Assembly (NCBI GenBank): GCA_020073485.1
Contig: JAIQFB010000040.1
Span: 1 to 42,298 of the forward strand
Source: Terriglobia bacterium
Lineage (GTDB): Bacteria; Acidobacteriota; Terriglobia; Acidiferrales; UBA7541
Direction: 5' to 3'
DNA length: 42,298 nt
In this document: positions 12,895 through 33,556 of the stretch, piece after piece
Position numbering within the stretch: position 1 is the first letter of the stretch
Layout of the letters: every line of letters begins with the position of its first letter
Made by a program: the position numbers and the translations under genes
The notes under the pieces: model-generated
Database searches by the model: none
What the model saw: only the letters and a program-made list of their open reading frames with translations
Told to the model about the DNA's origin: nothing

Positions 12895-13893
12895 TTATTT
12901 TCCCCGCACCTCGTCATACACTTCGGTGATGAACCGGGTTTTGCTCTGGGGCGTGTCGCCTTTCGTCGTCGCGTCATAGGGAGCGGTCAGGTTCGCGGCT
13001 AAAACTTCGCCCAATGATTTGCCCTGATCAACCAACTTCTTCGTCCTTGCCAGGATGTCGACGAGCATGGCGCGGTACGGAAGCAGGTCCGCCTTCTTGA
13101 CCAGCGTGCCGTGACCCGTGATGAGCGTCGTGTCGGAACCGGTAATGTTCCCGATCATGTCGATCGCCGTGATCATGCCCCGGATCGATCCGCCGTTGGC
13201 CTGATCGGCAAAGGGATAACCGAAATTGCGGTAGAAATCGCCGATATACAGCGCGTTTGCGTGCTGGAACCGGATGACCGTGTCGCCACCAGTATGAGAC
13301 GCTGGCACCGGAATAAAATCGACCTCTTCTCCATCCATATGAATCGTTACGGCGGGAGTTCCGGGGACCCCTAACGGATAGGTCACGACGGGAACCCCGG
13401 CCGGATCCGGCGCGGGAGCCGGGGTGCCATCGGCACGACGGGGCGGGTGGAGCATTTCATCGCGCAATTCCTCGCGTGAGAAGATCAAGGCGCCCTGTTG
13501 CGCGAAAAATAGATCGCCGCCCGTGTGGTCGGAATGGATGTGCGAGTTGACCAGAATGCGAATGGGCGCGGAGCTGAAAGTCCGGATCGCCGCCAGAACC
13601 TTTTCGTGCAACTCTTCGTCCTCGGAGTCGACGAGCAGGATGCCGTCCGGGCCGAAGAGCACGGCGACCCTGCCTCCGGCCGCGTCCGGGTGGTTCGTGT
13701 CAAAATCGGGGGAGCCCTGCAGGATGTAAAGGTTCGGCGCCAGCTTGGCCGTCACCGAAATCTGGATCTTGTCCCATTGCGCGAACGAGCGCCCCGGCGC
13801 GGGGCTCCGCGGTGACGGCGCCTGTGCCCAAGCGATCGCGGGGAGAACCGCCATCGCCGCCAGCGCTCCCAATAACAGACCTATGCGTTTCAT
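12895..13893 (-). CDS. Secreted metallo-beta-lactamase-fold hydrolase
   Basis: 332 residues starting MKRIGLLLGALAAM, a clear signal peptide ending near AWAQ. The MBL fold shows HSDHTGG (the HxHxDH motif, SHIHSDH), the second His in ASHTGGDT, the bridging Asp in YIGDFYRN and the last His in ITGHGTLV, so both zinc sites look complete. Family members are periplasmic hydrolases or cyclase-like enzymes with varied substrates. An AAAGGA about 12 bases before 13893 and the signal peptide show that translation begins here, although the frame stays open for 65 codons more upstream into a kinase relic. Confidence 0.87.
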   Translation of the reverse strand: MKRIGLLLGALAAMAVLPAIAWAQAPSPRSPAPGRSFAQWDKIQISVTAKLAPNLYILQGSPDFDTNHPDAAGGRVAVLFGPDGILLVDSEDEELHEKVLAAIRTFSSAPIRILVNSHIHSDHTGGDLFFAQQGALIFSREELRDEMLHPPRRADGTPAPAPDPAGVPVVTYPLGVPGTPAVTIHMDGEEVDFIPVPASHTGGDTVIRFQHANALYIGDFYRNFGYPFADQANGGSIRGMITAIDMIGNITGSDTTLITGHGTLVKKADLLPYRAMLVDILARTKKLVDQGKSLGEVLAANLTAPYDATTKGDTPQSKTRFITEVYDEVRGK

Positions 13894-13911
13894 TGGCCTC
13901 ATCCTTTCCGA

Positions 13912-14088
13912 TTGCTGAAACCGCGACAGCCGCTCCGGAGCATTCACGAAATTTGCGGGAAAAGCTCTGATGGCCGCATCGCGCCCAAACTTGGTGTCAC
14001 GTGCGTGATACACCTCGCTCATCCCTCCCGCGCCAATTGCGGAGAGAATTCCGTACGACCCTGGACGTGTGCCCGGGAGAATCTCCAT
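13912..14088 (-). pseudogene. Relic of a PknB-type Ser/Thr kinase N-lobe
   Basis: In the same frame as the hydrolase, this reads LPGTRPGSYGILSAIGAGGMSEVYHARD, then DAAIRAFPANFVNAPERLSRF (split here only for reading). It matches the glycine-rich loop (GxGGMxEVYxARD) and the VAIKVLP segment of acidobacterial PknB-like kinases. The catalytic lysine of VAIK is replaced (AAIR), and everything after the first ~60 residues is missing. It is therefore a dead fragment, probably left when a kinase gene was deleted beside the hydrolase. Confidence 0.75.
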
Positions 14089-15291: not shown

Positions 15292-15455
15292 GAATCTCCC
15301 GCACTCCCTTTCCGGACTCCTCCCTTATATTGGATGCTTCCTGGCCGCAATCCGGGTGCACGGCACGTCCGTCGTCCGACTTTTCAATCGCCGTGCGCGG
15401 GTGTATATTTCACGCCAAGCAAAATAAGCAGATTCTTTCGGACCCGGAATTCTGC

Positions 15456-16222
15456 ATGAATCGGGGGATTTTCGTGAAACTTTGCCAAAGTGTTTACCGC
15501 ACGCCGCTGGCGTGTGCCATCGCGTGCGCTGTATTCGCGTCTTGGTGCTCCTCCGCGAACGCGCAGGGGCAGGACCGTGCGCCGGTTTATTATCCGGCTG
15601 ACATTCAATACGGGGCGCAGATTTTCGCGTCCCAATGCACCGCGTGCCACGGAGAGAATGGCGACCTGATCCCCGGCGTGAACTTCCGGGCCGGGTGCCG
15701 GGCACAGCCATGCAGCCGTTTAATTTCGGCGCGTCCGAACTCACCGGAATCGTTTCCTACCTGCGCAACATGAGCAGCTTTGACACCAAGGGACTTCTGC
15801 TGGGCAACAAAACGCGCGGCCAGGAACTTTTCGAGGGAGCTGGAAAATGCGCGACCTGCCACGCGGTCAACGGCAAGGGCCCGCGCGTCGCTCCCGACCT
15901 GGGCGATATCGGTTCGATGCGCACCGCAGACTTGCTGCACCGCACACTGCTTGATCCGGCGGGCTCGATGCTGCCGGTCAGCCGCTCGGTACACGCCGTA
16001 ACCAAGGACGGGAAAATCATCAACGGCCGCCGGCTCAACGAAGACACCTACAGCGTCCAGCTGATCGACGAGCAGGAGCATCTGGTTTCTCTGAACAAGT
16101 CCGATCTGCGCGAATACGCCGTAGTCAATACGACGCCCATGCCGTCGTATAAAGACAAATTCAGCGCCCAGGAACTGGCCGACCTGGAAGCCTATCTGCT
16201 TTCCCTGAAAGGTGTGAAATGA
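15456..16222 (+). pseudogene. Di-heme cytochrome c, disrupted by deletion/frameshift
   Basis: The first frame (15456 onward) has a signal peptide and a first heme site CTACH at residues 61-65, reaching GVNFRAG. There it loses sense. The next frame resumes at about 15695 with VPGTAMQPFNFGASELTGIVSYLRNM, the C-terminal helix of the same cytochrome domain, and goes on to a second heme site CATCH and MPSYKD. About 15-20 residues normally between these segments are missing. The junction carries a 6-base direct repeat GCCGGG-T-GCCGGG (15690-15702), typical of a slippage deletion. The stop overlaps the PQQ dehydrogenase ATG (ATGA), so this was its electron acceptor. An assembly error is possible. 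Confidence 0.75.
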
Positions 16223-17865
16223 GAGACTCGCGGCGCACGTTTTTCCTGCTCGCTGTTACGTTGCTTTTTTCATTCTCGCTGCGCGCCCAGGTTACATCGC
16301 AGCGCCTGCTGCATGCCAGCGATGAGCCGCAGAACTGGCTGACCTACTCCGGCACCTACGCCAGCCAACGCTATAGCCTGCTCAATCAAATCGACACTTC
16401 CAACGTCAAGAATCTTGAGCTGCAGTGGGTGTTTCAAGCGCAGTCGCTGCAGAAATTCGAGACCACGCCGCTGGTTGTCGACGGCATCATGTATTTGACG
16501 CAATCGCCCAATGACATCATTGCCGTCGACGCCAAGACCGGCCGCGCTTTTTGGGTCTACCATTACGCGCCGTCTCCCGCCGCGCGGCCCTGCTGCGGCA
16601 TTGTGAATCGGGGCGTCGCGATCCTCGGCGACACGCTGTTCATGGCCACGGTCGACGCGCACCTGGTGGCCGTCGATTCCAAGACCGGCCATGCACTTTG
16701 GAACACGAAGCTGGCCGAACCCGCCACGGGTTACGCCATGACTATGGCGCCGCTGGTGGTGAAGGATAAAGTGATTGTGGGCGTTGCCGGAGGCGAGTTC
16801 GGCGTGCGCGGATTCATTTCCGCGTTCGATGCCGAGACCGGCAAGCAGGCCTGGCGCTTCGATACCATTCCCGCTCCCGGCCAGCCCGGAAGCGAAAGCT
16901 GGCGCGAAGGCGATTGGCAGCACGGCGGCGGCGCCGTCTGGGTCACCGGCTCCTACGATCCGGAACTGAACCTGATCTACTACGGCACGGGCAATCCCGG
17001 CCCGGACTGGAATCCGGCGCAGCGTCCGGGCGACAATCTATACTCGGATTCGGTCGTGGCCCTTGACCCCGACACCGGCAAACTCAAGTGGCATTTCCAA
17101 TTCACGCCGCACGATCCCTACGACTACGACTCGGTACAAATTCCCGTGCTGGTCAATGCAAACTGGAAGGGCGCTCCCAGCAAGCTGATGATGTGGGGCA
17201 ATCGCAACGGTTTCTTTTATGTGTTGGATCGCTCCACCGGAAAATTTCTCTCCGGTCATCCGTTCGTGAAGGTAAATTGGGCCAGCGGCCTGGACGCGAA
17301 CGGCCGGCCGGTCACCACGCCGCAGCCTCCCGGCCAGCCGACTTTTCCAGGCATTCAGGGAGGCACGAACTGGTATTCGCCTTCCTACAGCCCGCGCACG
17401 GGGCTTTTCTATATTCCCGCCTGGGAAAATTACTCCACGATTTTCACGGGCATCGACACTGAGTTTCATGAAGGTCAGCGGTACACCGGCGGCGCGAACA
17501 CGGCGCCCATCGCCGGAGCGGAAAATCCCGTGGGCCAGCGGCAGGGCCCCGTCAACATGTACACCGAAGCGTTGGGCAGCGGCGCCGTGGTGGCCATCGA
17601 TCCCGCCACCGGCGAGAAGAAGTGGAAGTTCGACATGCACGACGTCAATACCAGCGGTATCCTGACCACGGCTTCGGATTTGCTGCTTGCCGGTGGGCGC
17701 GAAGGCTATTTCCAGGCGCTCGACGCGCGCACCGGCGCGCTGCTGTGGAAGGAAAATCTCGGCGGAGAAATTATTGCCGGCCCCATGACCTACCGGGTCG
17801 ACGGCAAGCAGTACATCGCCATCGCCGCGGGGAACAGCCTGTTCACGTTCGCGCTGCGCGAATAG
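16219..17865 (+). CDS. PQQ-dependent alcohol dehydrogenase, lanthanide-type motif
   Basis: 548 residues, with a signal peptide (residues 1-23) placing it in the periplasm. It is an eight-bladed quinoprotein propeller with W-motif blades such as SQRYSLLNQI and DPDTGKLKWHF. The vicinal disulfide CC at 125-126, metal ligands E193 (GGEFG) and N259 (GTGN), and the catalytic D302 are present. Two residues on is D304, giving D-Y-D. This extra Asp is the known hallmark of lanthanide-dependent (XoxF/ExaF type) enzymes; calcium enzymes have Ala there. It oxidises an alcohol with PQQ and passes electrons to the cytochrome encoded just upstream (4-base overlap). Substrate unknown. Confidence 0.92.
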   Translation: MRDSRRTFFLLAVTLLFSFSLRAQVTSQRLLHASDEPQNWLTYSGTYASQRYSLLNQIDTSNVKNLELQWVFQAQSLQKFETTPLVVDGIMYLTQSPNDIIAVDAKTGRAFWVYHYAPSPAARPCCGIVNRGVAILGDTLFMATVDAHLVAVDSKTGHALWNTKLAEPATGYAMTMAPLVVKDKVIVGVAGGEFGVRGFISAFDAETGKQAWRFDTIPAPGQPGSESWREGDWQHGGGAVWVTGSYDPELNLIYYGTGNPGPDWNPAQRPGDNLYSDSVVALDPDTGKLKWHFQFTPHDPYDYDSVQIPVLVNANWKGAPSKLMMWGNRNGFFYVLDRSTGKFLSGHPFVKVNWASGLDANGRPVTTPQPPGQPTFPGIQGGTNWYSPSYSPRTGLFYIPAWENYSTIFTGIDTEFHEGQRYTGGANTAPIAGAENPVGQRQGPVNMYTEALGSGAVVAIDPATGEKKWKFDMHDVNTSGILTTASDLLLAGGREGYFQALDARTGALLWKENLGGEIIAGPMTYRVDGKQYIAIAAGNSLFTFALRE

Positions 17866-21834: not shown

Positions 21835-23169
21835 TTACGCTTTTTGAGAAAGGGCGCGATCCAGCAGTTCCACGACGTGCACCACTTCCTGCCCGGTCGA
21901 GTGGATCCGCGTGCCTGCGCGCATCTGCAGCAGGCAGCCGGGATTGGCGGTGACGATGACCGGAGCGCCGGTCGCTCGCGCATGTTTCATCTTTTCCGCC
22001 AGTAGCGCCAACGAAGTTTCGGTCTCGGTGACGTTGTAGGATCCCGCCGAGCCGCAGCAATAGTCGGCCATGTTCATCTCGACCAGTTCCACGCCGGGGA
22101 TGGCGCGCAACAGCTTGCGCGGGGCTTCGCGAATCTTCTGCCCGTGCAACAGGTGGCAGGAATCCTGGTAGGTGACGCGCAGCGGCAACTCCGCCAGCGG
22201 CGCGGTCATTCCCAGGTCGGCTAAAAATTCAGTGGCATCGCGCATTTTTTTCTGAAATGCCGCTGCCTTGGCGTGCTCGGCCGTCCCGGCGGAAAAAAGA
22301 TGTTCGTATTCTTTCAGCGTCGAACCGCACCCAGCGGCGTTCGTAATAATTGCGTCGAAATCGCCTTTCAAAAATACGTCGAGGTTGGTGCGCGCCACGC
22401 CCCGCGCGGCATCACGCGCTCCGGCATGCGCGGCCAGCGCCCCGCAGCAGGTTTGTCCCGCTGGAACCACGACCTCGCAGCCGTTCGCCGTGAGCACGCG
22501 AATCGTGGCCTCGTGCAACTGGGAAAAACTGACTTGCGCGATGCACCCGGCAAACAGCGCCACGCGCGCGCGGCGCTGCCCGATGGCGGAATACGTGCGT
22601 CCCAGGTTCGAGAAAAAGAATTTCTGGTCAATCGGCGGCAGCAGCTGCTCCCGGTCCGCAAGCCCGAGCAGGCCGAGAATCCCCGACGCGCGCGCCACCG
22701 CTTGCAGGCCGGATCGCTGGTAAAAATAGAGGGATCGCGCGAGGACCGCGATGCGCCGCGGATACGGCAGCAGCCGCCGAAAAACAAAATCGCGCGTCAG
22801 ACGCGAAAAAAACGGACGCCGGTAATTCCGTTCTATTTGCGCGCGCGCCGCTTCCACCAGTTTGCCGTACTGCACGCCGGAAGGGCACGCCGTCTCGCAC
22901 GCGCGGCAGTCCAGGCACTGATCGATATGCTTCACGAAGGAATCGCCCAGCGGGAGCCGCCCCTGATCCACCAGTACGATCTGGCGAATGCGGCCCCGCG
23001 GCGAATCGGCTTCGAGCCCCCACAATTTGTAGGTCGGGCACTGGTTCAGGCACAGTCCGCAGTGCACGCAGTGCGCGTAGTCATCGTACGCGGGAATATC
23101 CGCGCCGGAAAATCCGCTGGGCTGCGCGGTTACTGCAGCCTGCTCCGTGTTTGCCGTCGATTCGGTCAT
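21835..23169 (-). CDS. glcF: Glycolate oxidase iron-sulfur subunit GlcF
   Basis: 444 residues. Two [4Fe-4S] sites: CVHCGLCLNQCP (C34, C37, C40, C44) and CLDCRACETACP (C85, C88, C91, C95). Two CCG-type domains follow (TCCGALAAH; DYCCGSAGSY), as in GlcF/LutA proteins. It takes electrons from the flavoprotein subunits GlcD/GlcE and passes them towards the respiratory quinone pool. Last gene of glcDEF. ATG 23169 lies just after the glcE stop and is preferred to a TTG 21 bases upstream that would overlap glcE. Confidence 0.93.
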   Translation of the reverse strand: MTESTANTEQAAVTAQPSGFSGADIPAYDDYAHCVHCGLCLNQCPTYKLWGLEADSPRGRIRQIVLVDQGRLPLGDSFVKHIDQCLDCRACETACPSGVQYGKLVEAARAQIERNYRRPFFSRLTRDFVFRRLLPYPRRIAVLARSLYFYQRSGLQAVARASGILGLLGLADREQLLPPIDQKFFFSNLGRTYSAIGQRRARVALFAGCIAQVSFSQLHEATIRVLTANGCEVVVPAGQTCCGALAAHAGARDAARGVARTNLDVFLKGDFDAIITNAAGCGSTLKEYEHLFSAGTAEHAKAAAFQKKMRDATEFLADLGMTAPLAELPLRVTYQDSCHLLHGQKIREAPRKLLRAIPGVELVEMNMADYCCGSAGSYNVTETETSLALLAEKMKHARATGAPVIVTANPGCLLQMRAGTRIHSTGQEVVHVVELLDRALSQKA

Positions 23170-23173
23170 GGGA

Positions 23174-24553
23174 TCAGATACCGCCTGCAAAACGCCCCGG
23201 GCACAGAACTCCGTTGGGGTCGAAAGAATCCTTCACGCGCTTCATCAGTCCGAAATCGGGCCGCGGAGGTCCCCACACTCCGCCCGCCGCCAACTTCACT
23301 TCCGGCGGACACCATTCCAGCATGGCCGAGGCATTGATCTCGGACTTGCCGCAGACGCGAAACACTTCCTGGACGGCTTTGCTCAGCAGTGGGACGGTGG
23401 CTGCTTCGCCTTCTTTTGGCAGGAGAGCGGCGTACACAATTCCGGACGCGCGCGTAAGAGAAATCAGATCGACACCGCCTCGTGTCGCGACAGAACTCAA
23501 TTCGCCCAACAGCCCCGGCATGGCCGTGGGCAAGACACCGATGCGAAAAATTGCCGCCGAGGGCACTGCTTCGAGGATCAATCTCGGGAATTCGCGAATA
23601 CGGGCCAAGACCACGGGCCCTTCGGAATCGCCCAGCGGCTCAAGCTCATCGGCATTCGCTGCGGCGGCCATGTGGCCAAGCTCCCGCGCGTAGCGGTCCA
23701 CCACTTCCGGAAGCCCCGCGGCGGAAACCAGGACCGACCATTTTCGCGGCTCGGCCTGCGGCGGCCCGCCACCCGAAAAAATCACTTCCGCGGCGCCAGG
23801 ATCGGCGATTTCCACCATTTGAGGCGTGAGCGGCGAGCGGGAAATTGCGCCGCAGAACTGAAATGCAGGTTCGGCGGCGGAAAACGCGGCCACGAATGTC
23901 CTCTGCGCGGGAAGAAGCGGGAATGTCCGGAAATTCACGCGCGTGATGACGCCGAGTGTCCCTAGCGATCCGATCAAAAGTTTGTGCAGATCGTAGCCCG
24001 TCACGTTTTTCACCACGCGCCCGCCGCTTTTTGCCTGACTTCCCTCCCCGGTCACAAACTCCATGCCCAGGCAGAAATCGCGAACGCCGCCGTAGGCATG
24101 GCGCAGCGGCGAGCTGGAATTGGACGCGACGATCCCGCCAATCGTGGCCCGCTCCAGATACGGAACCACCAGCGGCAGAAATTGTTTCTGCTCCGCCAGC
24201 ACGCGCAACAACTGCTCGATGCGCATGCCGGACTCGACGCCGAGCGTGAGATCCTGCGGATCGTAGGCCAGCACGCGATTCATGCGCGAAAGATCCAGCG
24301 CAATGTCGTAGCGCGCCGGCGGCGAGCCGATGCCGAGTTTCGTGCAGCCGCCGCTTGGAATCACGGCAAGTTTTTCCGCGCCTGCGAACCGCAGAACCTC
24401 CGCAATCTGCGCGGCATCGGCCGGTTGAATCACTGCGGAGGGGAGAAACCCGTCGACCCGGCGCAAAGCAAGATCTTCCGGCGAGGTGAGGACGTGCGGC
24501 GCGCCGACGATTTCCTCGAGGCGCGCGAAAGAGATGTGCGCGGGATGGCTCAT
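23174..24553 (-). CDS. glcE: Glycolate oxidase FAD-binding subunit GlcE
   Basis: 459 residues. A PCMH-type FAD-binding domain is evident: SGGCTKLGIGSPP (about 67-79), ERATIGGIVASNSSSPLRHAYGGVRDF, and KNVTGYDLHKLLIGSLGTLGVIT, all typical of GlcE. The C-terminus ends DPNGVLCPGRF. Longer than the ~350 residues of E. coli GlcE, mainly through a middle insertion (about 240-330). It pairs with GlcD and GlcF to oxidise glycolate to glyoxylate at the inner membrane. Its ATG overlaps the glcD stop by four bases, which implies translational coupling. Confidence 0.92.
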   Translation of the reverse strand: MSHPAHISFARLEEIVGAPHVLTSPEDLALRRVDGFLPSAVIQPADAAQIAEVLRFAGAEKLAVIPSGGCTKLGIGSPPARYDIALDLSRMNRVLAYDPQDLTLGVESGMRIEQLLRVLAEQKQFLPLVVPYLERATIGGIVASNSSSPLRHAYGGVRDFCLGMEFVTGEGSQAKSGGRVVKNVTGYDLHKLLIGSLGTLGVITRVNFRTFPLLPAQRTFVAAFSAAEPAFQFCGAISRSPLTPQMVEIADPGAAEVIFSGGGPPQAEPRKWSVLVSAAGLPEVVDRYARELGHMAAAANADELEPLGDSEGPVVLARIREFPRLILEAVPSAAIFRIGVLPTAMPGLLGELSSVATRGGVDLISLTRASGIVYAALLPKEGEAATVPLLSKAVQEVFRVCGKSEINASAMLEWCPPEVKLAAGGVWGPPRPDFGLMKRVKDSFDPNGVLCPGRFAGGI

Positions 24554-25989
24554 GCGGGAGTTGCCGCGGAAGCCGGGATATGCGGTATGCGGATTTCCCC
24601 GCAGCCTTTGCCGAGCGGAAGGACTTTACCCGGATTCAATCGCCCCGCGGGATTGAACGACGCGCGCACGCGCGCCATCAGCGCCAGGTCGTCCGGTGAA
24701 AAGATCAACGACATCAGCTCGTTTTTTTCCATGCCGATGCCGTGCTCTCCGGTGAGCGCGCCGCCCACGTCCACGCAGTGCCGCATGATTTCGCCGCCCG
24801 CCGCCACCACGCGCTCGAATTGCGCGCGATCGCGCTCGTCAAACAGGATCAGCGGATGAAGGTTGCCGTCGCCGGCATGAAAAATGTTGCCGATTTGCAG
24901 GTCGTATTTCGCGGCGATTTCCGCGATGCGGCGAAGCGTCTCCGGCAGGCGCGTCCGGGGAATCACGCCGTCCTGCACGTAATACATGGGCGAAATGCGG
25001 CCGAGCGCTCCGAACGCTTCCTTGCGCCCCTTCCAGAGCAGCGCGCGCTCGCGGTCATCGCGCGCCACGCGCACTTCCCGGGCGCGATGCAGTTTGCACA
25101 CTTCGGTGATCGCGGCGGCCTGCGCCTCGACCGCTTCGCTAAGCCCTTCCACCTCGATCAGCAGCACCGCCGCGCAATCCTTGGGAAATCCGGCGTGCAC
25201 GTAATCCTCGACGGCGCGCAGCGTGAATCCATCCAGCATCTCGCACGCCGCGGGCGTGATGGCCCGCACGGTGATCTCGAAGACGGACTCGGTGGTGTCG
25301 TCGATCGTGTCGTAGACCGCCAGCAGCGTTTTTACCGCCTCGGCCTTGCGCGTCAGCCGCACCGTGATTTCCGTGACCAGCGCCAGCGTTCCTTCCGAGC
25401 CCACGAACAATCCGTTGAGGTCGTACCCGGACGTCTCCAGGTTTTTCCCGCCGGTGCGCACGATTTCTCCGTCGGGCAGAACCAGTTCGAGGCCGGTCAC
25501 GTGATTGGTCGTCACGCCGTAGGCCAGAGTGTGCGGGCCTCCCGAGTTTTCGGAGACGTTTCCCCCGATGGTGCACGCTTTCTGGCTGGATGGGTCGGGA
25601 GCGAAATACAGGCCCAGATGATCGACCGCGCGCGAGAGATCGAGATTCACGACGCCGGGCTGGACGACGGCGCGCAGGTTTGCCGCGTCGATTTCCAAAA
25701 TGCGGTTCATGCGCGAAAACGCCACGACAATGCCGCCGTCCCGCGCAATCGCTCCTCCCGATAGCCCCGTGCCCGCGCCGCGACCCAGCAGCGGAACTTC
25801 GTAGCGGTTCGCCAGGCGCACGATTTCCGAAACTTCGCGCGCCGAGCTTGGAAAGACGACGCACTCGGGCGATCCCAGCTCCACCGAGCCGTCATACTCA
25901 TACAGCATCAGATCTTCCGGTTCGGATAGAACGGCCTTGGGTCCCAGCAGGGCGATCAGGTCGCGGACGAGTTGCGGTTTTATTTGCAT
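24550..25989 (-). CDS. glcD: Glycolate oxidase FAD-linked subunit GlcD
   Basis: 479 residues. The flavin site is GRGAGTGLSGGA (69-80), then TIGGNVSENSGGPHTLAYG and LFVGSEGTLA. The catalytic C-terminal half has the family's HAGDGNLHP and TGEHGIG signatures, with FNPAGRLNPGKV near the end. It oxidises glycolate (or a related 2-hydroxy acid) to the 2-oxo acid. First gene of glcDEF. A good promoter lies 20-50 bases upstream; the leader would be very short and I see no strong Shine-Dalgarno. Confidence 0.94.
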   Translation of the reverse strand: MQIKPQLVRDLIALLGPKAVLSEPEDLMLYEYDGSVELGSPECVVFPSSAREVSEIVRLANRYEVPLLGRGAGTGLSGGAIARDGGIVVAFSRMNRILEIDAANLRAVVQPGVVNLDLSRAVDHLGLYFAPDPSSQKACTIGGNVSENSGGPHTLAYGVTTNHVTGLELVLPDGEIVRTGGKNLETSGYDLNGLFVGSEGTLALVTEITVRLTRKAEAVKTLLAVYDTIDDTTESVFEITVRAITPAACEMLDGFTLRAVEDYVHAGFPKDCAAVLLIEVEGLSEAVEAQAAAITEVCKLHRAREVRVARDDRERALLWKGRKEAFGALGRISPMYYVQDGVIPRTRLPETLRRIAEIAAKYDLQIGNIFHAGDGNLHPLILFDERDRAQFERVVAAGGEIMRHCVDVGGALTGEHGIGMEKNELMSLIFSPDDLALMARVRASFNPAGRLNPGKVLPLGKGCGEIRIPHIPASAATPA

Positions 25990-26009
25990 GTGAAAATTTC
26001 GCTCTGTTC

Positions 26010-26039
26010 ACTATAGTCTGCGGCTTCGGTGAGAGTCAA
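26010..26039 (-). promoter_or_regulatory. Sigma70-like promoter for glcDEF
   Basis: On the minus strand TTGACT (26039-26034) and TATAGT (26015-26010) each match five of six consensus bases, with an 18-base spacer. Transcription would begin near 26003, leaving a leader of only about 14 bases before the glcD ATG. Confidence 0.65.
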
Positions 26040-26164
26040 CGCTAGCTCGCGATCTCAAAAATCGATTTTCAAATGCGACAACTTCCTGATGATATTCAAA
26101 TTGGAATGGTCTACTCTGTTTCCTACTTGCTGCAAACCGTCGCAGGGGCGGCGGAAGAGGGTGA

Positions 26165-26524
26165 ATGGGCCTGTTTTCCCGAATATTTGGAGCCAAGGGC
26201 GGCGCGCCGGCGAATCCTCCGGTGCAGGAGGTCGAAGTGTACTTTTCCTATGGCTCCACGAACTTCCAGCACCTGTATGCGCTCGAGGATGTAATCCGGC
26301 ATGCAATTTCCGATGCGGCCGTCGGCAAATACGAAGGCCACGATGTTTCCGCCGACGGAAGCGACGGTTATTATTATTTGTACGGGCCGGACGCCGAGGC
26401 CATTTATCGCGTAATTAGTCCCGTACTGGCCACCTCCAGTTTCATGACCGGCGCCACCGTGACGTTGTGGTTCGGCCCGCGCAAGTGGCGAACCCCCAAG
26501 CGTGTCATCCACCTCCCCGCCTGA
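26165..26524 (+). CDS. Hypothetical protein, conserved-looking
   Basis: 119 residues. After a basic N-terminus (MGLFSRIFGAKGG), it forms a compact alpha/beta domain: VEVYFSYGSTNFQHLYALED, DGYYYLYGPDAEAIYRVISPVL, TGATVTLWFGPRKW. I do not recognise a named family. GAGG lies 4 bases before the ATG. It sits between the divergent glcDEF promoter and the 2-hydroxyacid dehydrogenase, but nothing shows a role in that pathway. Confidence 0.6.
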   Translation: MGLFSRIFGAKGGAPANPPVQEVEVYFSYGSTNFQHLYALEDVIRHAISDAAVGKYEGHDVSADGSDGYYYLYGPDAEAIYRVISPVLATSSFMTGATVTLWFGPRKWRTPKRVIHLPA

Positions 26525-26664
26525 CCTGGCCCGCGGATTCGTTGGTGTCCGAATCTGGGCGACATTCTAAAATACGCGTACAGCCGCCGAACGCCACGCA
26601 GCCCGTTTCAACGTGCGGCAGCTGTGTTACCCTTCGGTGTTGATTTTCAGATTGGGGCCGGGAC

Positions 26665-27648
26665 GTGAGCAAACCAAAATTATTTTCCACGCACGTTTTG
26701 TTTGAAGAGCCGCGCCGCCGACTGGCGGAACATTTCGATGTGGAATACTGGACGGGAAGCGAGCGGCCGTCGCGACCGGAAGTATTGCAGCGCGTCGCGG
26801 GCAAGGGCGCGCTCATCTGCCTGCTCACCGAAAGAGTGGATCAGGAACTGCTCGACGCCGCAGGTCCAAACCTGCGGATTGTCGCCAATGTGGCGGTCGG
26901 CTACGACAATATCGATGTGCCGGCTTGCACGGAGCGGAAAATCGCCGTGAGCAACACGCCGGGCGTGCTCGATGAAACCACCGCCGATTTTACCTGGGCG
27001 CTTCTGATGGCCGTGGCCCGCCGCCTGGTCGAGGGCGACCGGCTGGCGCGCTCGGGCGGGTGGCTGCAGTGGAATTTTGACCTGCTGTGCGGCACCGACA
27101 TCTGGGGAAAAACCCTGGGCATCATCGGATTGGGGCGCATTGGCCGGGCCGTGGCCCGCCGCGCTTCGGGATTTGGCATGCGCGTGATCTACAACAGCAC
27201 TTCGCGCGCGCCCGCCGAGATCGAACAGGAATTGCATGCGGAATATTTGACTCAGGAACAAGTTCTGCGGCAGGCCGATTTTTTATCCTTGCACGTTCCG
27301 CTCAACCAGAAGACCCGCGGCCTGATCGGTCGCGAGCAACTCGCAAAAATGAAGAAGACGGCGTTTCTGGTCAATACCACGCGCGGGCCGGTGGTACAGG
27401 AAGCCGCGCTTGTCCAGGCACTGGAGGATGGCGTGATTGCCGGCGCGGCGCTCGATGTGTTTGAGCGCGAACCCCTGATCAGCGACGGCTTGCGGCGCGA
27501 CAACGTCGTACTTGCGCCTCATCTCGGCTCCGCCTCGATCGAAACACGCACGAAGATGGCCATGATCGCCGCCGAAAATGCCATCGCCTTTTTTGCCGGG
27601 AAACGTCCGCCGACGATCCTGAATCCGGAAGTCTGGCCGAGGAGTTAG
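26665..27648 (+). CDS. D-2-hydroxyacid dehydrogenase (glyoxylate/hydroxypyruvate reductase type)
   Basis: 327 residues. Nucleotide-binding GLGRIG at 155-160; catalytic set R240 (NTTRG), E269 (FEREP) and H286 (APHLGSA). VAVGYDNIDVPACTERKI and TPGVLDETTADF are typical of the GyaR/GhrB subgroup, which reduces glyoxylate to glycolate or hydroxypyruvate to D-glycerate. With glcDEF and a glycerate kinase nearby, hydroxypyruvate-to-glycerate is the attractive role, but the direction and substrate are inference. GTG start at 26665 with a weak GGGG-rich ribosome site. Confidence 0.9.
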   Translation: MSKPKLFSTHVLFEEPRRRLAEHFDVEYWTGSERPSRPEVLQRVAGKGALICLLTERVDQELLDAAGPNLRIVANVAVGYDNIDVPACTERKIAVSNTPGVLDETTADFTWALLMAVARRLVEGDRLARSGGWLQWNFDLLCGTDIWGKTLGIIGLGRIGRAVARRASGFGMRVIYNSTSRAPAEIEQELHAEYLTQEQVLRQADFLSLHVPLNQKTRGLIGREQLAKMKKTAFLVNTTRGPVVQEAALVQALEDGVIAGAALDVFEREPLISDGLRRDNVVLAPHLGSASIETRTKMAMIAAENAIAFFAGKRPPTILNPEVWPRS

Positions 27649-27728
27649 CTGGCATTTCTCAGGAATGAGGCCTGTTTTTGTATTCATGAATCGCGCAAAT
27701 TTCATGACGTTGAAATGCGGAGCGGCTT

Positions 27729-27808
27729 TTGGTGGCACAGGCTTCAGCCTGTGTACTTTTCGTGTGCAAGAAGATCTAAACCGCACTGGCTAAAGCCTGT
27801 GCCACCAA
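27729..27808. repeat. Large REP-like inverted repeat, 16-base perfect arms
   Basis: TTGGTGGCACAGGCTT (27729-27744) and AAGCCTGTGCCACCAA (27793-27808) are perfect 16-base inverted repeats. The left arm also folds as CACAGGCT-TC-AGCCTGTG (27736-27753). It lies between the dehydrogenase gene and glcG. The core GGCTTCAGCC recurs at 28355-28374. Confidence 0.75.
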
Positions 27809-27910
27809 TCCGCATGCTTTGCAGCCTCGCAGGAAGCAAGGGAGCGCAAAAAGTCGTACGGAGTATTTGTCGATGATGCACGGATCGCCGATCCCTGGGA
27901 GAGCAAAAAC

Positions 27911-28342
27911 ATGCCCTACGTAACGACCAATCATCCGAAACTTACTCTTGAAGGCGCCGAAGCGGTTCTGTCCGCCGCGAAGGAACACGCCGCCCGCATC
28001 GGCGTGCCCATGAATATCGCCATTGTCGATGACGGCGGCCACATGCTGGCGTTTGCCAGGATGGACGGCGCGAAACTCTCCTCGATCGACATTGCAATGA
28101 ATAAAGCCATCGCTGCAGCGATCCGCCGGCAGGCCACCGGGCCGGCGCGCTCAGGCGACGAAATAAACGCGTTGGTATCGCTCGGCCTGGCCATCGGCAG
28201 CCACGCGCGCCAGACGCCGATCCGCGGCGGCATTCCCCTGGAAGCCAACGGCGAATGCGTCGGCGCGATTGGCGTCAGCGCGGGCACCGAAGACCAGGAC
28301 GTCGAAGTCGCACGCGCCGGCGTGGCTGCATTCGGGAAGTAA
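27911..28342 (+). CDS. glcG: GlcG/HbpS-like protein
   Basis: 143 residues, one GlcG/HbpS (DUF336) domain: LTLEGAEAVLSAAKEHAARIG, then NIAIVDDGGHMLAFARMDGA and the C-terminal RGGIPLEANGECVGAIGVSAGT with EDQDVEVARAG. The family is often encoded beside glycolate oxidase genes; HbpS binds heme and senses oxidative stress, while the role of GlcG is not settled. No signal peptide. GGGAGAG lies 7 bases before the start. REP-like hairpins flank it on both sides. Confidence 0.9.
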   Translation: MPYVTTNHPKLTLEGAEAVLSAAKEHAARIGVPMNIAIVDDGGHMLAFARMDGAKLSSIDIAMNKAIAAAIRRQATGPARSGDEINALVSLGLAIGSHARQTPIRGGIPLEANGECVGAIGVSAGTEDQDVEVARAGVAAFGK

Positions 28343-28354
28343 TGAATATGAGTA

Positions 28355-28374
28355 GCGCAGGCTTCAGCCTGCGC
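28355..28374. repeat. REP-like hairpin, same family
   Basis: GCGCAGGCT (28355-28363), TC, AGCCTGCGC (28366-28374): a perfect 9-base stem containing the same GGCTTCAGCC core as the element at 27729. It lies in the ~105 bases between glcG and the glycerate kinase and may attenuate or stabilise the joint transcript. Confidence 0.65.
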
Positions 28375-28449
28375 ATCGTTCGGGCGCCGGAAAAGGAAAA
28401 GCGCCCGCGGCGCCGACCATTGCAATTGCGCACGAATCCTGGCGAGTGA

Positions 28450-29760
28450 ATGACCGACCTCAAACAAACTGCGCTCGAAATCGCCCGCGAAACTTTGGCG
28501 GCGATCGATATTCCCGCGACGCTGCGGCGCAAACTCGCGCGCTCGGACTCGCGTATCCGCGTGAACAACGCGGACCTGGACCTCGCTGCGTTCCAACGCA
28601 TATTTGTTATTTCCATCGGCAAGGCCTCCGTGGCCATGGCCCGCGGGATTACCGAAACGCTTTCGCCGGACTTTCCTGCGTCGGGCATCATTGTCGCGCC
28701 CGCGCTTGACGGGAGCGCGCCGCCGGGATTTCGCGCGATGATAGCGGGGCATCCGCTGCCCGATGAAGGCAGTTTCGCCGCGGGCCGCGCCATTCTGGAC
28801 TTGCTGGCCACGACCGGTGAACACGATCTGGTTTTCTTTCTCCTGTCCGGCGGAGGCTCCGCGATGGTCGAGCAACCTCTCGATCCGCGCGTGACGCTTA
28901 GGGAAGTACAGGAATTGAACCGCACCCTGGTGACCTGCGGGGCCTCGATCGATGAAATCAACGCCGTGCGGAAACATCTTTCGGCCGTGAAGGGCGGACG
29001 ATTGGCGGTGGCGGCGGCGGCAATGAAGGTCACGCTTGGCGTCACCGACGTACCCGAAGGGCAGGAGTCGGCGCTCGCCTCGGGCCCGACTCTTCCCGAC
29101 CCCACCACCGTGCGCGATGCCTGCGCGGTGGTCGGCCGCTACGGCCTGCTGGCGAAGCTGCCCACGCCCTTTCGGTTGCGATTTGAAAATCCCGAGACGA
29201 TTCCGGAAACGCCCAAGGCAGCGAACCCCGCGTTTGCCCGCGCCAAATTTCAAATTGTGCTCGGCCGGCACGACCTGTTTCATCCCGCGCATCGCGCGGC
29301 CGAAGCCGCGGAATTCGTCACCATGTGCGACAACACCACCGACAACTGGCCGGTCGCCAAGGCCACGGATTTTTTGCTGGAGCAACTGGCCGCGCTGAAG
29401 CGCGCCAATCCCGGCAAGTCCGTGGCCGTCATCGCCGATGGCGAAGTCAGTTCCCCGGTGACGGGCAACGGTGTCGGCGGACGAAATCTTGCGTTTGTTC
29501 TCGATTGCGTTCCGAAAATCGCGGGCAGGCAAATCGCCGTACTCAGCGTGGGCACCGACGGGATCGACGGTTCAAGCCCGGCGGCAGGCGGGGTCGCCGA
29601 CGGCAAAACCCTGGCGCGCGCGCTGGCCCAGGGTCTCGACCCCGCGGATTATTTTCGCCGCAGCGATTCCTACACTTTTTTTCAGAAGTTGGGCGACGCG
29701 GTCACGACTGGGCCAACGGGAAATAATCTTCGGGATCTTCGCATCCTTCTGGCTGATTAG
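28450..29760 (+). CDS. Glycerate 2-kinase (MOFRL/DUF4147 family)
   Basis: 436 residues. The N-terminal domain has VISIGKASVAMARG, then AGHPLPDEGSFAAGR, FFLLSGGGSAM and NAVRKHLSAVKGGRLA, all hallmarks of the GckA/TtuD glycerate kinases. The C-terminal MOFRL domain shows GVGGRNLAF and SVGTDGIDGSSPAAGGVAD. It phosphorylates D-glycerate to 2-phosphoglycerate, feeding carbon from hydroxypyruvate into lower glycolysis. It follows glcG on the same strand. Confidence 0.93.
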   Translation: MTDLKQTALEIARETLAAIDIPATLRRKLARSDSRIRVNNADLDLAAFQRIFVISIGKASVAMARGITETLSPDFPASGIIVAPALDGSAPPGFRAMIAGHPLPDEGSFAAGRAILDLLATTGEHDLVFFLLSGGGSAMVEQPLDPRVTLREVQELNRTLVTCGASIDEINAVRKHLSAVKGGRLAVAAAAMKVTLGVTDVPEGQESALASGPTLPDPTTVRDACAVVGRYGLLAKLPTPFRLRFENPETIPETPKAANPAFARAKFQIVLGRHDLFHPAHRAAEAAEFVTMCDNTTDNWPVAKATDFLLEQLAALKRANPGKSVAVIADGEVSSPVTGNGVGGRNLAFVLDCVPKIAGRQIAVLSVGTDGIDGSSPAAGGVADGKTLARALAQGLDPADYFRRSDSYTFFQKLGDAVTTGPTGNNLRDLRILLAD

Positions 29761-29885: not shown

Positions 29886-30422
29886 CTAGCGCAGCGGCTT
29901 CGGCCACCAGCTCACAAAGCCGTCCTTGTTCGGCATTTTCACGCGCGGCAGCGACTTGGCGTCAAGCACCGCGTCCGGCGGAACGATTCCGTCGATGGAC
30001 AGCAGATACGCGGTGACGGCGTAGACTTCGTCGTTGGTCAATGATTGCGGCGATGCGATGGGCATGGCCCGGCGAATATAATCAAACAGCGTGGTGGCGG
30101 CAGGCCAATAACTTGCCGAAGTCTTCACCGGCTTGGCTGACGCGAGCGTACCCACGCCTCCGGTGAGCTGATCCTGCGGCTTGCCCGCGCCCTTCGCGCC
30201 ATGGCACACCTCGCAGTTCCTTGCGTACACCGCGGCGCCGGCCGAAACCGATCCGCTGCCCGGAGGAAGTCCCCGGCCGTCGGGCCACACCGTGATGTCC
30301 GCTTTTCGAATCTCCTCGGGTGTCAAAGCACGTCCAAGGTTCGGCCCTTGCGCGCCGCACACGGCCGGGAACAAGCAAAGCGCCACTGCCGAACAAAGAA
30401 CCCCGATTTTAAGCATAGACAT
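29886..30422 (-). CDS. Mono-heme cytochrome c, partner of the sulfite dehydrogenase
   Basis: 178 residues with a signal peptide (about 1-24). Single heme site C70-E-V-C73-H74, with axial Met in RRAMPIASP (M120). The N-terminal LTPEEIRKADITVWPDGRGLP and YARNCEVCHG match the cytochrome subunits that accompany SoxC/SorA enzymes. It would take electrons from sulfite oxidation in the periplasm. It overlaps the 3' end of the dehydrogenase gene by 14 bases (or 8 if started at the second ATG). Confidence 0.87.
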   Translation of the reverse strand: MSMLKIGVLCSAVALCLFPAVCGAQGPNLGRALTPEEIRKADITVWPDGRGLPPGSGSVSAGAAVYARNCEVCHGAKGAGKPQDQLTGGVGTLASAKPVKTSASYWPAATTLFDYIRRAMPIASPQSLTNDEVYAVTAYLLSIDGIVPPDAVLDAKSLPRVKMPNKDGFVSWWPKPLR

Positions 30423-31704
30423 TTTTCACCGTCCCATCGGCTTCAATTCCCCAGGCCTGTATGCCGTTGAAGTGGTATCCCTGCCCCGGCACAAATTGCG
30501 CGACCCAGTCCGCACGCGAAGGCTGGACGTCTCCGGTCTCGTCAGTAGCGCGGCTCATCAGGGTGGATGGCTGCCCCTTCCAATCCCACGGGAGGCGGAA
30601 CCGCGTCAGGGCCATTGGCAGTACCGGTGCGTTCAGCGCCGCAAGTTCCCAGGTTTTTCCGGCATCCTTGGACACTTCCACTTTCGCGATCCGCCCCGCT
30701 CCCGACCACGCCAGGCCGGAGATTTCATACCATCCCGGGCCCTGCAGATTCATTCCGAACGACGGCTTTAGGATCAGGGATTTTGCGCCCATGGGAAACA
30801 TGAACTGGCGGGCCTTGCCGCCGGGCATCAATTCAGTGTAATGCGAGGTCTCGTCGCGGGCGTCCACGGGTACGTCGGTGACGTTCAGGCGGCGAATCCA
30901 CTTCACATTCATGTTACCTTCAAAGCCCGGCAGCAGCAGGCGCATCGGGTAGCCTTGTTCCGGGCGAATGGCTTCGCCGTTTTGAAACAACGCAATCATG
31001 GCGTCGTCCATGCATTTCTCGAGCGGAATGCTGCGGCTCATGGCGGCCGCATCGGCGCCCTCCGCGATCACCCATTTTGCTCCGGGTGCCACGCCGGCTT
31101 CGTTCAGCAACGTGGCCAGCCGCACGCCGGTCCATTCCGAGCCGGACAGCAGGCCGTTCAGCTCGCCGGAGGTCGCTTGCGGGGGCTGCGCCTGGTTATA
31201 TCCCCCGCTGTTGCCGGAGCACTCAATGAAGCGGATATGCGTTTCCATGGGATAGCGCGCCAGTACATCGGTGGAAAAAGCGAGCGGCCGTTTCACCATT
31301 CCATGAATGAGCAGTTCGTGCTGCGACGGGTCAATGTCCGGGACGCCGTTATGGTGCCGCTCAAAATGCAGTCCCGCCGGCGTGATCGTTCCTTCCAGCC
31401 GTTGCAAGGGAGTTCGCGAAACACCCGTGCCGGGGCGGCCCGGCGGGTTCGCAATCGTGCGCTGAACTTTCTCCTGCCATTTGGATGGCGTGCCGTACGG
31501 GGAAAAGGAACGTCCCGGTGTCTTCATCCATTCCGGAGCATTCGCACCGATGCTGTCGTCAGCCTGGGCAATGCCCACACTTGCAGCGGCAGCCCCCGCG
31601 GAAAGCAGCGCTCCCCGCAACAGCGCACGCCGGCCCAGCAGACCCTTTCCGGGAACGGGTTCTTTCCCCATTTTCGCGGCATCTTTCTTTTCGGAATTCT
31701 TCAC
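30409..31704 (-). CDS. soxC: SoxC-like molybdenum sulfite dehydrogenase
   Basis: 431 residues. A Tat-type signal (GRRALLRGALLSAGAAAASV, twin Arg at 25-26) implies folded export. The sulfite-oxidase domain has the molybdenum-ligand Cys in FIECSGNSGG (C162), then HGMVKRPLAFS and RLLLPGFEGNMNVKWIRRL. The C-terminal Mo-co dimerisation domain has AWSGAGRIAKVEVSKDAG. It oxidises sulfite (SorA-like) or acts in sulfur oxidation (SoxC); no soxAXYZ or soxB genes are present, so a stand-alone sulfite dehydrogenase is more likely. Co-transcribed with its cytochrome. Confidence 0.9.
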   Translation of the reverse strand: MKNSEKKDAAKMGKEPVPGKGLLGRRALLRGALLSAGAAAASVGIAQADDSIGANAPEWMKTPGRSFSPYGTPSKWQEKVQRTIANPPGRPGTGVSRTPLQRLEGTITPAGLHFERHHNGVPDIDPSQHELLIHGMVKRPLAFSTDVLARYPMETHIRFIECSGNSGGYNQAQPPQATSGELNGLLSGSEWTGVRLATLLNEAGVAPGAKWVIAEGADAAAMSRSIPLEKCMDDAMIALFQNGEAIRPEQGYPMRLLLPGFEGNMNVKWIRRLNVTDVPVDARDETSHYTELMPGGKARQFMFPMGAKSLILKPSFGMNLQGPGWYEISGLAWSGAGRIAKVEVSKDAGKTWELAALNAPVLPMALTRFRLPWDWKGQPSTLMSRATDETGDVQPSRADWVAQFVPGQGYHFNGIQAWGIEADGTVKNVYA

Positions 31705-32473: not shown

Positions 32474-33556
32474 ATGACCGAGACACACGCTGATGAAATT
32501 CAAATCGCGCGAACTTTTAATCACGACCTTCTCATTCGGAAGAGCGACCAGGATGCCGCCGCGCTCCGTTGGCCTGCTATCGCCCACGTTCTCGTCAACG
32601 CGGAGCTCATTCGCACATTCACGCGGCATGAGAAGCGGGCTAAGATTCAGAAGCGTGTTGTACAGTTCCTTGGCTCGGCTGCTGTGTTAATGATGCTCGG
32701 CGCACTGCTCGGGTACGTCACCGCACTCTGGGTCGCGCCACCAGGCTCCGACCGGCACATCCCATATTTGGGCGTTCTTTCGGAGATCAGCGCCCTCGGA
32801 GCTCTCGTCTTGGCGGTGTTGGCTTCCCGTTATGGACCTGTGCGACGACGCTGGCTGAAAAATCGCTTCATCACCGAAGTGCTCAGGCAGTGGCACTTCC
32901 GGCGTCTGTTGGACGGCGAAGCCGTTGAATGCAGTATCGACGCGCAAGCTCAGTCTGTCACGGCACGCGATGCCGCGTTGTCGAAACTCATCCACGACCT
33001 AGCGGGCAACGTCGGTGAGAAGATGGACGAATTGTCGCAGTTCCGGCGCGATTCGCTCGGGCCTATTCCGCATTCACGACTTCCCAAAGCCCCTCAGATG
33101 CGGACCCAGTTGCTCGATGCATATCGCGCCCTCAGGCTAGACCACCAGCGGGACTTCGCGGTCTACAAGCTTTCCGCGGAGGACAAGACATTCGCGGGCC
33201 TGTCATTGGGAGCGTTGTCGACCCTGACCGAGCAACTGGCTGGAACGACCCTCGTCCTCGCACTGACGTGCTCCGTTGCGAGACTGTTTGTTGAGTTCGC
33301 GTGGTCGCCCATGGCGGCTGTGTCGCTGGCGATGACCGGCGTAGCAGTGCGGGCTTGGCGCGATGGCTTCGCCTTGGAACCGGAGCGCGAGCGGTATCAA
33401 GAGATGGTCCACGAGCTCGAGTTGCTCACCGCACGCTGGGAGAATACGGTGGACGATGAGCAGCGGTTTCGCATCGCAGAGGAAGTCGAAAGAGCCGGTC
33501 TTGAAGAACTTCGCTCGTTCATTCGCTCACACGAGCGAGCGCAATTCTTGGTCTAA
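32474..33556 (+). CDS. Four-TM protein resembling a tandem SLATT effector
   Basis: 360 residues. Two separate pairs of membrane helices: about 63-87 with 99-118, and about 248-270 with 278-295, with soluble helical segments between and after. Helix 2 is followed by RRRWLKNRFITEVLRQWHFRRLL, and helix 4 by RAWRDGFALE and a long charged helix (RYQEMVHELELLTARW). Both follow the pattern of SLATT (SMODS/SLOG-associating two-TM) domains, predicted pore-forming effectors of nucleotide-activated immunity; tandem SLATT proteins are known. Assignment is by pattern only. GGGAG 7 bases upstream supports the start. A truncated second copy and a TIR protein gene follow. Confidence 0.55.
   Translation: MTETHADEIQIARTFNHDLLIRKSDQDAAALRWPAIAHVLVNAELIRTFTRHEKRAKIQKRVVQFLGSAAVLMMLGALLGYVTALWVAPPGSDRHIPYLGVLSEISALGALVLAVLASRYGPVRRRWLKNRFITEVLRQWHFRRLLDGEAVECSIDAQAQSVTARDAALSKLIHDLAGNVGEKMDELSQFRRDSLGPIPHSRLPKAPQMRTQLLDAYRALRLDHQRDFAVYKLSAEDKTFAGLSLGALSTLTEQLAGTTLVLALTCSVARLFVEFAWSPMAAVSLAMTGVAVRAWRDGFALEPERERYQEMVHELELLTARWENTVDDEQRFRIAEEVERAGLEELRSFIRSHERAQFLV

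Follow-up and report, generated by a model that had tools for sequence, protein, structure and literature searches.

A predicted quinoprotein alcohol dehydrogenase with a lanthanide-type metal site in a Terriglobia bacterium

Does the quinoprotein alcohol dehydrogenase gene at positions 16219 to 17865 of a 42,298-nucleotide stretch of Terriglobia DNA (contig JAIQFB010000040.1, hereafter the window) encode an enzyme that depends on rare-earth metals? The question is raised by a pair of aspartates in its product, P0001, on the strength of which rare-earth dependent alcohol oxidation had been suggested for this lineage (the original prediction). We consider the rare-earth claim for P0001 plausible. 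Judged by the residues of the site and by the predicted fold, the protein is probably a Ln(III)-dependent periplasmic alcohol dehydrogenase with pyrroloquinoline quinone (PQQ) as its cofactor, which it would obtain by scavenging. Lanthanide-type PQQ enzymes in Acidobacteria are already in print: XoxF3 is described in Acidobacteria of weathered granite and soil (PMC10875860), acidobacterial XoxF in grassland soil genomes (PMC6784897), and marine Acidobacteria are among the genomes with up to 70 putative lanthanide enzymes (PMC11996626). P0001 would add a member to these.

The metal site was compared by means of printed Protein Data Bank (PDB) alignments and one joint alignment. Positions 193, 259, 302 and 304 of P0001 are E, N, D and D, and the two aspartates stand in the motif H-D-P-Y-D302-Y-D304, just as they had been read originally. 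E193 and N259, named as metal ligands at the same time, align with Glu and Asn in 6/6 references compared. D304 aligns with the second Asp of PedH (WDFD) and of XoxF (WDYD) and is by alignment located in the metal site. The same position is Ala in MxaF (4tqo and 1lrw: WDYA) and Thr in 1kv9, 1kb0, 1yiq and 8gy2 (WDFT or WDYT), which, like the two MxaF structures, we take to be calcium enzymes. The accompanying statement that calcium enzymes have Ala fits MxaF but is too narrow, given the Thr of the type II enzymes and the treatment of D-x-A, D-x-T and D-x-S alike as calcium types in PMC11996626. The additional Asp is called essential in PMC8546591, citing Good et al. 2020.

The residue counts cover 82 homologues (79 loci). 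The remaining candidate of the 83, L074, aligned only partially and was left out of them; D-x-D was read in it as well. D302, D304, W241, R329 and N384 are invariant in all 82. W241 is aligned with the Trp that presumably stacks on PQQ, and R329 is, we assume, the active-site Arg; its position is Arg in the XoxF, PedH and MxaF references and Lys in 1kv9 and 1yiq. G192 is Gly in PedH and XoxF and Ala in 1kv9, 1yiq and MxaF, with Gly in 76 and Ala in six of the homologues. A vicinal cysteine pair, C125-C126, is seen in 80 homologues (L036 has an X and L070 lacks the pair), and such a disulfide has been linked to electron transfer (PMC8546591, PMC12997753). Identical in PedH are the four metal-ligand positions together with C125, C126, R131, G191, G192, W241, R329, N384 and W385, while T175 is Ser in PedH. 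As aligned, the metal site of P0001 is of the lanthanide kind at every residue compared.

P0001 belongs to the PQQ methanol/ethanol family by its score of 581.8 bits against TIGR03075 (curated cut-off 480.05). Its N-terminus is hydrophobic and, judged by eye, resembles a signal peptide, forming a helix over residues 2-22 in the AlphaFold model. The chain ends at residue 548 after the propeller, with no fused C-terminal haem domain, and on this ground P0001 does not count as a type II quinohaemoprotein. The model has a mean predicted local distance difference test score (pLDDT) of 91.2 and a predicted template modelling score (pTM) of 0.91. Its top match is PedH both in Foldseek (E 2.4e-59) and in VIA (Z 53.6, root mean square deviation 1.5, 506 residues aligned), and among the families that the two lists give, quinoproteins come first and other propellers afterwards. 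The closest named homologue, L009, comes from the Terriglobia metagenome-assembled genome SRVP_21 and is 96% identical. Between the two dehydrogenase genes dN is 0.021 and dS 0.497, giving a ratio of nonsynonymous to synonymous substitution rates (dN/dS) of about 0.04 (0.042). In a plasmid collection no clade member was found among 320 records matched at E 1e-50 or better, all of which were below 60% identity.

Set beside the known enzymes, P0001 is most like PedH/ExaF (6zcv, 6zcw), the best fold match, with which it has the Glu, the Asn, D-x-D, the Cys pair, R329, N384 and W385 in common. PedH/ExaF differs from it in an identity of only 36-41%, in a separate branch of the tree, in two late Trp residues (L-W-G-G and G-W-G-G) that are both missing in P0001, and in the cytochrome gene found directly upstream of P0001. 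XoxF (6dam, 4mae) shares D-x-D, G-G-E-F-G, the Cys pair and the Arg but likewise sits on a branch of its own. Type II enzymes (1kv9, 1kb0, 1yiq) have the same fold. They differ in carrying Thr in place of D304 and a fused haem domain, visible as CxxCH in the alignments, and 1kv9 and 1yiq also have Lys where P0001 has R329. Finally, the sorbose/type I structures (4mh1, 4cvb, 7wmd, 9m2c, 22vi) resemble P0001 in a C-terminus without G-W-G-G. In 22vi, however, the Cys pair is missing and D-Q-E replaces D-x-D, and the sequence matches of this group are weaker (185.9-194.8 bits versus 380.4 for 1kv9), as are its fold matches.

Directly upstream of P0001, and on the same strand, lies a gene for a dihaem cytochrome c whose stop codon overlaps the ATG of the dehydrogenase (ATGA). 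In this assembly it is split. The open reading frame (ORF) at 15330-15770 gives a weak Pfam Cytochrom_C match (22.2 bits, cut-off 21.3), and the ORF with the second haem domain reaches 62.2 bits against TIGR02603, below the cut-off of 68.15, the L009 gene also falling just under it (67.7). Both fragments match in one frame in L149, taken as the contig of L009, and in L150 and L134. An upstream cytochrome c homologue on the same strand was found in 63 of 80 homologous loci, at most 311 bp before the matched start, and in 61 of these 63 two CxxCH motifs lie in one ORF. Read from gene order, this arrangement argues for a working redox enzyme.

The assignment thus draws on site residues, a fold prediction, a two-gene arrangement and purifying selection, all of them read from sequence. 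In the scheme that we propose, P0001 would be a secreted, periplasmic, eight-bladed quinoprotein alcohol dehydrogenase that would bind PQQ and a trivalent light lanthanide through E193, N259, D302 and D304 and would oxidise an alcohol or aldehyde. The Cys125-Cys126 disulfide, close to PQQ, would then relay the electrons to the dihaem cytochrome c that is encoded upstream. The features concerned are collected in Table 1.

Table 1 Features of the putative dehydrogenase and of its partner cytochrome gene, in positions of the window.
Feature	Position	Strand	Basis
Quinoprotein alcohol dehydrogenase, PQQ methanol/ethanol family (TIGR03075), 548 aa	16219..17865	+	Pfam PQQ E 4.9e-95; TIGR03075; AlphaFold; dN/dS
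Vicinal Cys pair C125-C126, putative active-site disulfide	16591..16596	+	aligned with CC of PedH, XoxF, MxaF and type II
Putative metal ligand E193, codon (G-G-E-F-G)	16795..16797	+	Glu in 81/82 homologues; Asp in L021
W241, codon	16939..16941	+	aligned Trp; 82/82 homologues
Putative metal ligand N259, codon (G-N-P)	16993..16995	+	Asn in 81/82 homologues; gap in L056
Putative catalytic Asp D302, codon	17122..17124	+	82/82 homologues
Additional (lanthanide-type) Asp D304, codon	17128..17130	+	82/82 homologues
R329, codon (N-R-N-G)	17203..17205	+	82/82 homologues
Partner dihaem cytochrome c, 5' fragment: hydrophobic N-terminus, first CxxCH, then frame lost	15474..15773	+	
Junction: 55 bp of L009 missing, frame lost	15694..15695	.	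alignment with L009
ORF with second haem domain of the cytochrome	15635..16222	+	Pfam Cytochrom_C 7.2e-13

A number of observations weigh against a lanthanide- and PQQ-dependent P0001, and they begin with its overall relationships. By fold, type II 1yiq and 1kv9 follow close behind PedH (Z 51.8), and the best sequence match in the PDB is type II 1kv9 (1.4e-112), barely ahead of PedH (6.7e-112). With similarities so nearly equal, the metal cannot be told from overall sequence and fold; as far as it can be told at all, it is from the site residues. A tree of 44 rows was built from P0001, 30 of the 82 homologues, two XoxF, one MxaF, one PedH and type II sequences, with no sorbose-type reference. 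In it P0001 and the 30 chosen homologues form a clade of 31 rows (98/98) apart from all of these references, so that it groups with neither XoxF nor PedH; the single PedH reference branches with type II (88/80, weak) and not with P0001. A search of the 5.05 Mb assembly to which the window belongs (97% complete) with TIGR03871 gave no match to XoxJ.

The late Trp residues point the same way. Neither P0001 (N539) nor any of the 82 homologues has the Trp of the G-W-G-G motif that PedH and type II share. At the site of the other late Trp, present in PedH, XoxF and MxaF, P0001 has T478, and only 12 homologues have Trp. The subgroup that keeps it consists of L072, L073, L075-L078, L080 and L082-L086. 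We considered the loss of these residues as proof of an empty site and rejected it, because the sorbose/type I enzymes lack G-W-G-G too; their loss therefore does not rule PQQ out. The title of one structure in that group, 7wmk, describes a complex with PQQ.

D-x-D by itself is also not sufficient. An ocean survey treats it as a direct sign of lanthanide binding and finds the lanthanide motif in 61% of 6,328 PQQ dehydrogenases (PMC11996626). According to the same source, membrane glucose dehydrogenase has D-x-D yet accepts Ca, Mg, Zn or Sr, and its authors predict this enzyme to be facultatively lanthanide-dependent. The family TIGR04528, 'acido-empty-quinoprotein group A', is of the same propeller class as P0001 and has a similarly short C-terminus. 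Eleven proteins, in five relatives, passed its cut-off; four of them (L155-L158, 713-795 bits), each from a different relative, were inspected. All four keep N259 and D-x-D, although they lack the Cys pair and have Ala, Asp, Phe and Ala, respectively, at the position of the Glu ligand. A similar picture emerges from the seven other TIGR03075 matches above 300 bits in the genome of P0001 (L089, L090, L092-L096). Asp stands at the D304 position in 7/7, but L093-L096 lack the Cys pair, and two of these also lack the Glu. The E193 position is Asp in L092 and L093 and Tyr in L094, and the N259 position is Asp in L094 and Gln in L095. In L089 and L090, which carry fused haem domains with a C-terminal CxxCH, none of the four ligands is lost and the Trp of G-W-G-G is still present. 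As read from these alignments, D-x-D persists when other parts of the site are lost, and in P0001 the site is complete.

Best surviving among the alternatives is that P0001 is a PQQ alcohol dehydrogenase working with Ca2+ or with several metals, in which the extra Asp would tolerate a lanthanide and not demand it. The example of membrane glucose dehydrogenase lends itself to this view, as do the persistence of D-x-D after loss of the Glu ligand and the type II enzymes, which are almost level with PedH by fold and slightly ahead of it by sequence. Nevertheless, P0001 has its four ligands as in PedH, G192 as in PedH and XoxF, and Arg at position 329 where type II has Lys, and no Asp occupies the D304 position in 4tqo, 1lrw, 1kv9, 1kb0, 1yiq or 8gy2, presumably all calcium enzymes. 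We regard a metal-promiscuous P0001 as unlikely.

The supply of the cofactor is a further difficulty. The genome of P0001 has no PqqB, PqqC or PqqE over cut-off, the best scores being 37.5 bits for PqqB (cut-off 245), 30.9 for PqqC (240) and 95.4 for PqqE (381.35). Among 41 genomes including this one, PqqB is over cut-off in ten, PqqC in six (and in three more in pieces) and PqqE in ten. Of 50 homologue-bearing genomes, drawn from 50 of the 80 loci and of completeness not given, three (those of L011, L021 and L047) have PqqC over cut-off. With E. coli PqqU as query, no match at 1e-10 was obtained in the genome of P0001 among the 28 scored out of 36 candidates; the search does see distant homologues, such as a near-full-length match of 29% identity in another genome (G014). 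With no PQQ synthesis genes found, the host would depend on scavenged PQQ. PMC12124388 places PqqU, among Acidobacteria, in Vicinamibacteria only and suggests that Acidobacteria lacking PqqU either synthesise PQQ themselves or depend on the diffusion of PQQ present in soil. In the granite and soil study, PQQ synthesis appears possible in only 16/38 XoxF-bearing genomes (PMC10875860), a figure by which it is not uncommon for a lanthanide-type enzyme to occur where PQQ is not synthesised.

Two congeners are instructive in this respect. G001 has PqqB, PqqC and PqqE over cut-off together with an orthologue of P0001 of 79% identity, beside which the cytochrome fragments lie in one frame; G004 (71% complete) has PqqE, but neither PqqB nor PqqC, over cut-off and an orthologue of 82% identity. 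This pattern speaks for an enzyme that uses PQQ, in hosts that often obtain it by scavenging. Four relatives in the class (G031, G034, G036, G040) have at least 19 to 31 TIGR03075 matches each, with 26 of the 36-71 candidates scored, and in none of them is PqqB, PqqC or PqqE over cut-off.

The same data leave some room, in our estimate rather little, for the idea that this mainly acidobacterial clade gets PQQ by an undescribed route or combines the lanthanide site with some different quinone. It is prompted by the combination of a full lanthanide-type site and the usual cytochrome with hosts most of which, as sampled, lack PqqC, and by the host of P0001 itself, which is without PqqB, PqqE and a recognisable PqqU.

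Still less credence is due to an 'empty quinoprotein', by which we mean a propeller that dispenses with PQQ or employs some other cofactor, in a lineage that does not synthesise PQQ. The phrase itself was found in no paper of the literature searched. P0001 does score 541.3 bits against TIGR04528, and for one clade member, L058, this model (544.4) even outscores TIGR03075 (537.3); no Pqq protein of the three passes in the host, nor in the four relatives so rich in TIGR03075 matches. Yet P0001 stays below the TIGR04528 cut-off of 650, as do all nine clade members scanned (501.9-544.4 bits). P0001 moreover keeps the disulfide and the Glu ligand that the four curated members have lost, the upstream cytochrome in most loci implies redox work, and G001 has both the Pqq proteins and an orthologue. 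The absence of PqqC as proof of emptiness was rejected, considering that L089 and L090, with their full ligands and G-W-G-G Trp, are encoded in the same genome and that G001 carries the orthologue.

The cytochrome, too, speaks in part against the proposed scheme. It is frameshifted in this assembly, and 16 loci with upstream DNA show no cytochrome homologue at 1e-6 (a further locus, L065, has no upstream DNA). That the redox system no longer works in this strain is nonetheless very improbable, for although 55 bp are missing and the N-terminal part of the cytochrome has a higher dN/dS of about 0.12 relative to L009, the low values of its second haem domain (0.054) and of the dehydrogenase point to a recent defect or to an error of assembly, and other cytochromes could serve, e.g., the fused haem domains of L089 and L090. 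In this strain P0001 may use another cytochrome, or else the frameshift arose recently or in the assembly.

Returning to a PQQ- and lanthanide-dependent P0001, the suggestion of rare-earth alcohol oxidation in this lineage gains from the lanthanide-kind site and from PedH as the best fold match. It loses from the insufficiency of D-x-D, from the Pqq genes that were not found and from the frameshifted cytochrome, and would stand in part.

Apart from the cytochrome gene, no neighbour recurs in the sampled loci, and twenty neighbours in ten other loci revealed no recurring function. Among the 80 loci, the only matches of other window neighbours outside L009 were a kinase (31-33% in L019 and L022) and a sulfite dehydrogenase pair (46-50% in L063). 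Upstream of the cytochrome and on the other strand, a gene at 12895-14088 that is conserved in L009 encodes a metallo-beta-lactamase-fold protein resembling 'quinoprotein relay system zinc metallohydrolase 2' (66.8 bits, below the cut-off of 280). Downstream, at 21835-29757, GlcF-, GlcE- and GlcD-like genes on the minus strand and glyoxylate-reductase-like and glycerate 2-kinase-like genes on the plus strand make up a C2 module, each gene scoring below the NCBIfam equivalog cut-off of its best match. The module is found in the same order beside the dehydrogenase in G005, and it is not found in the 19.5 kb around the G001 orthologue. Glycol oxidation, considered as the substrate reaction from this context, was set aside for this reason and is left as a weak lead. 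Further along, at 29886-31704, a cytochrome c gene adjoins a SoxC-type sulfite dehydrogenase gene (TIGR04555, 546.6 bits, over the cut-off of 420). A SLATT_1 protein (32474-33556) lies near a TIR and TPR protein (34013-35929) with a weak match to Thoeris ThcB4 (44.7 bits, cut-off 220), and these may be defence genes.

That D-x-D survives the loss of the Glu ligand and of the disulfide means that surveys relying on D-x-D alone may overcount lanthanide enzymes. Should P0001 prove to be the enzyme proposed here, rare-earth use would extend to a two-gene alcohol-oxidation clade present in many soil and water Acidobacteria. Lanthanide metabolism would then be tied to PQQ shared within the community, most of the sampled hosts of this clade being without PqqC.

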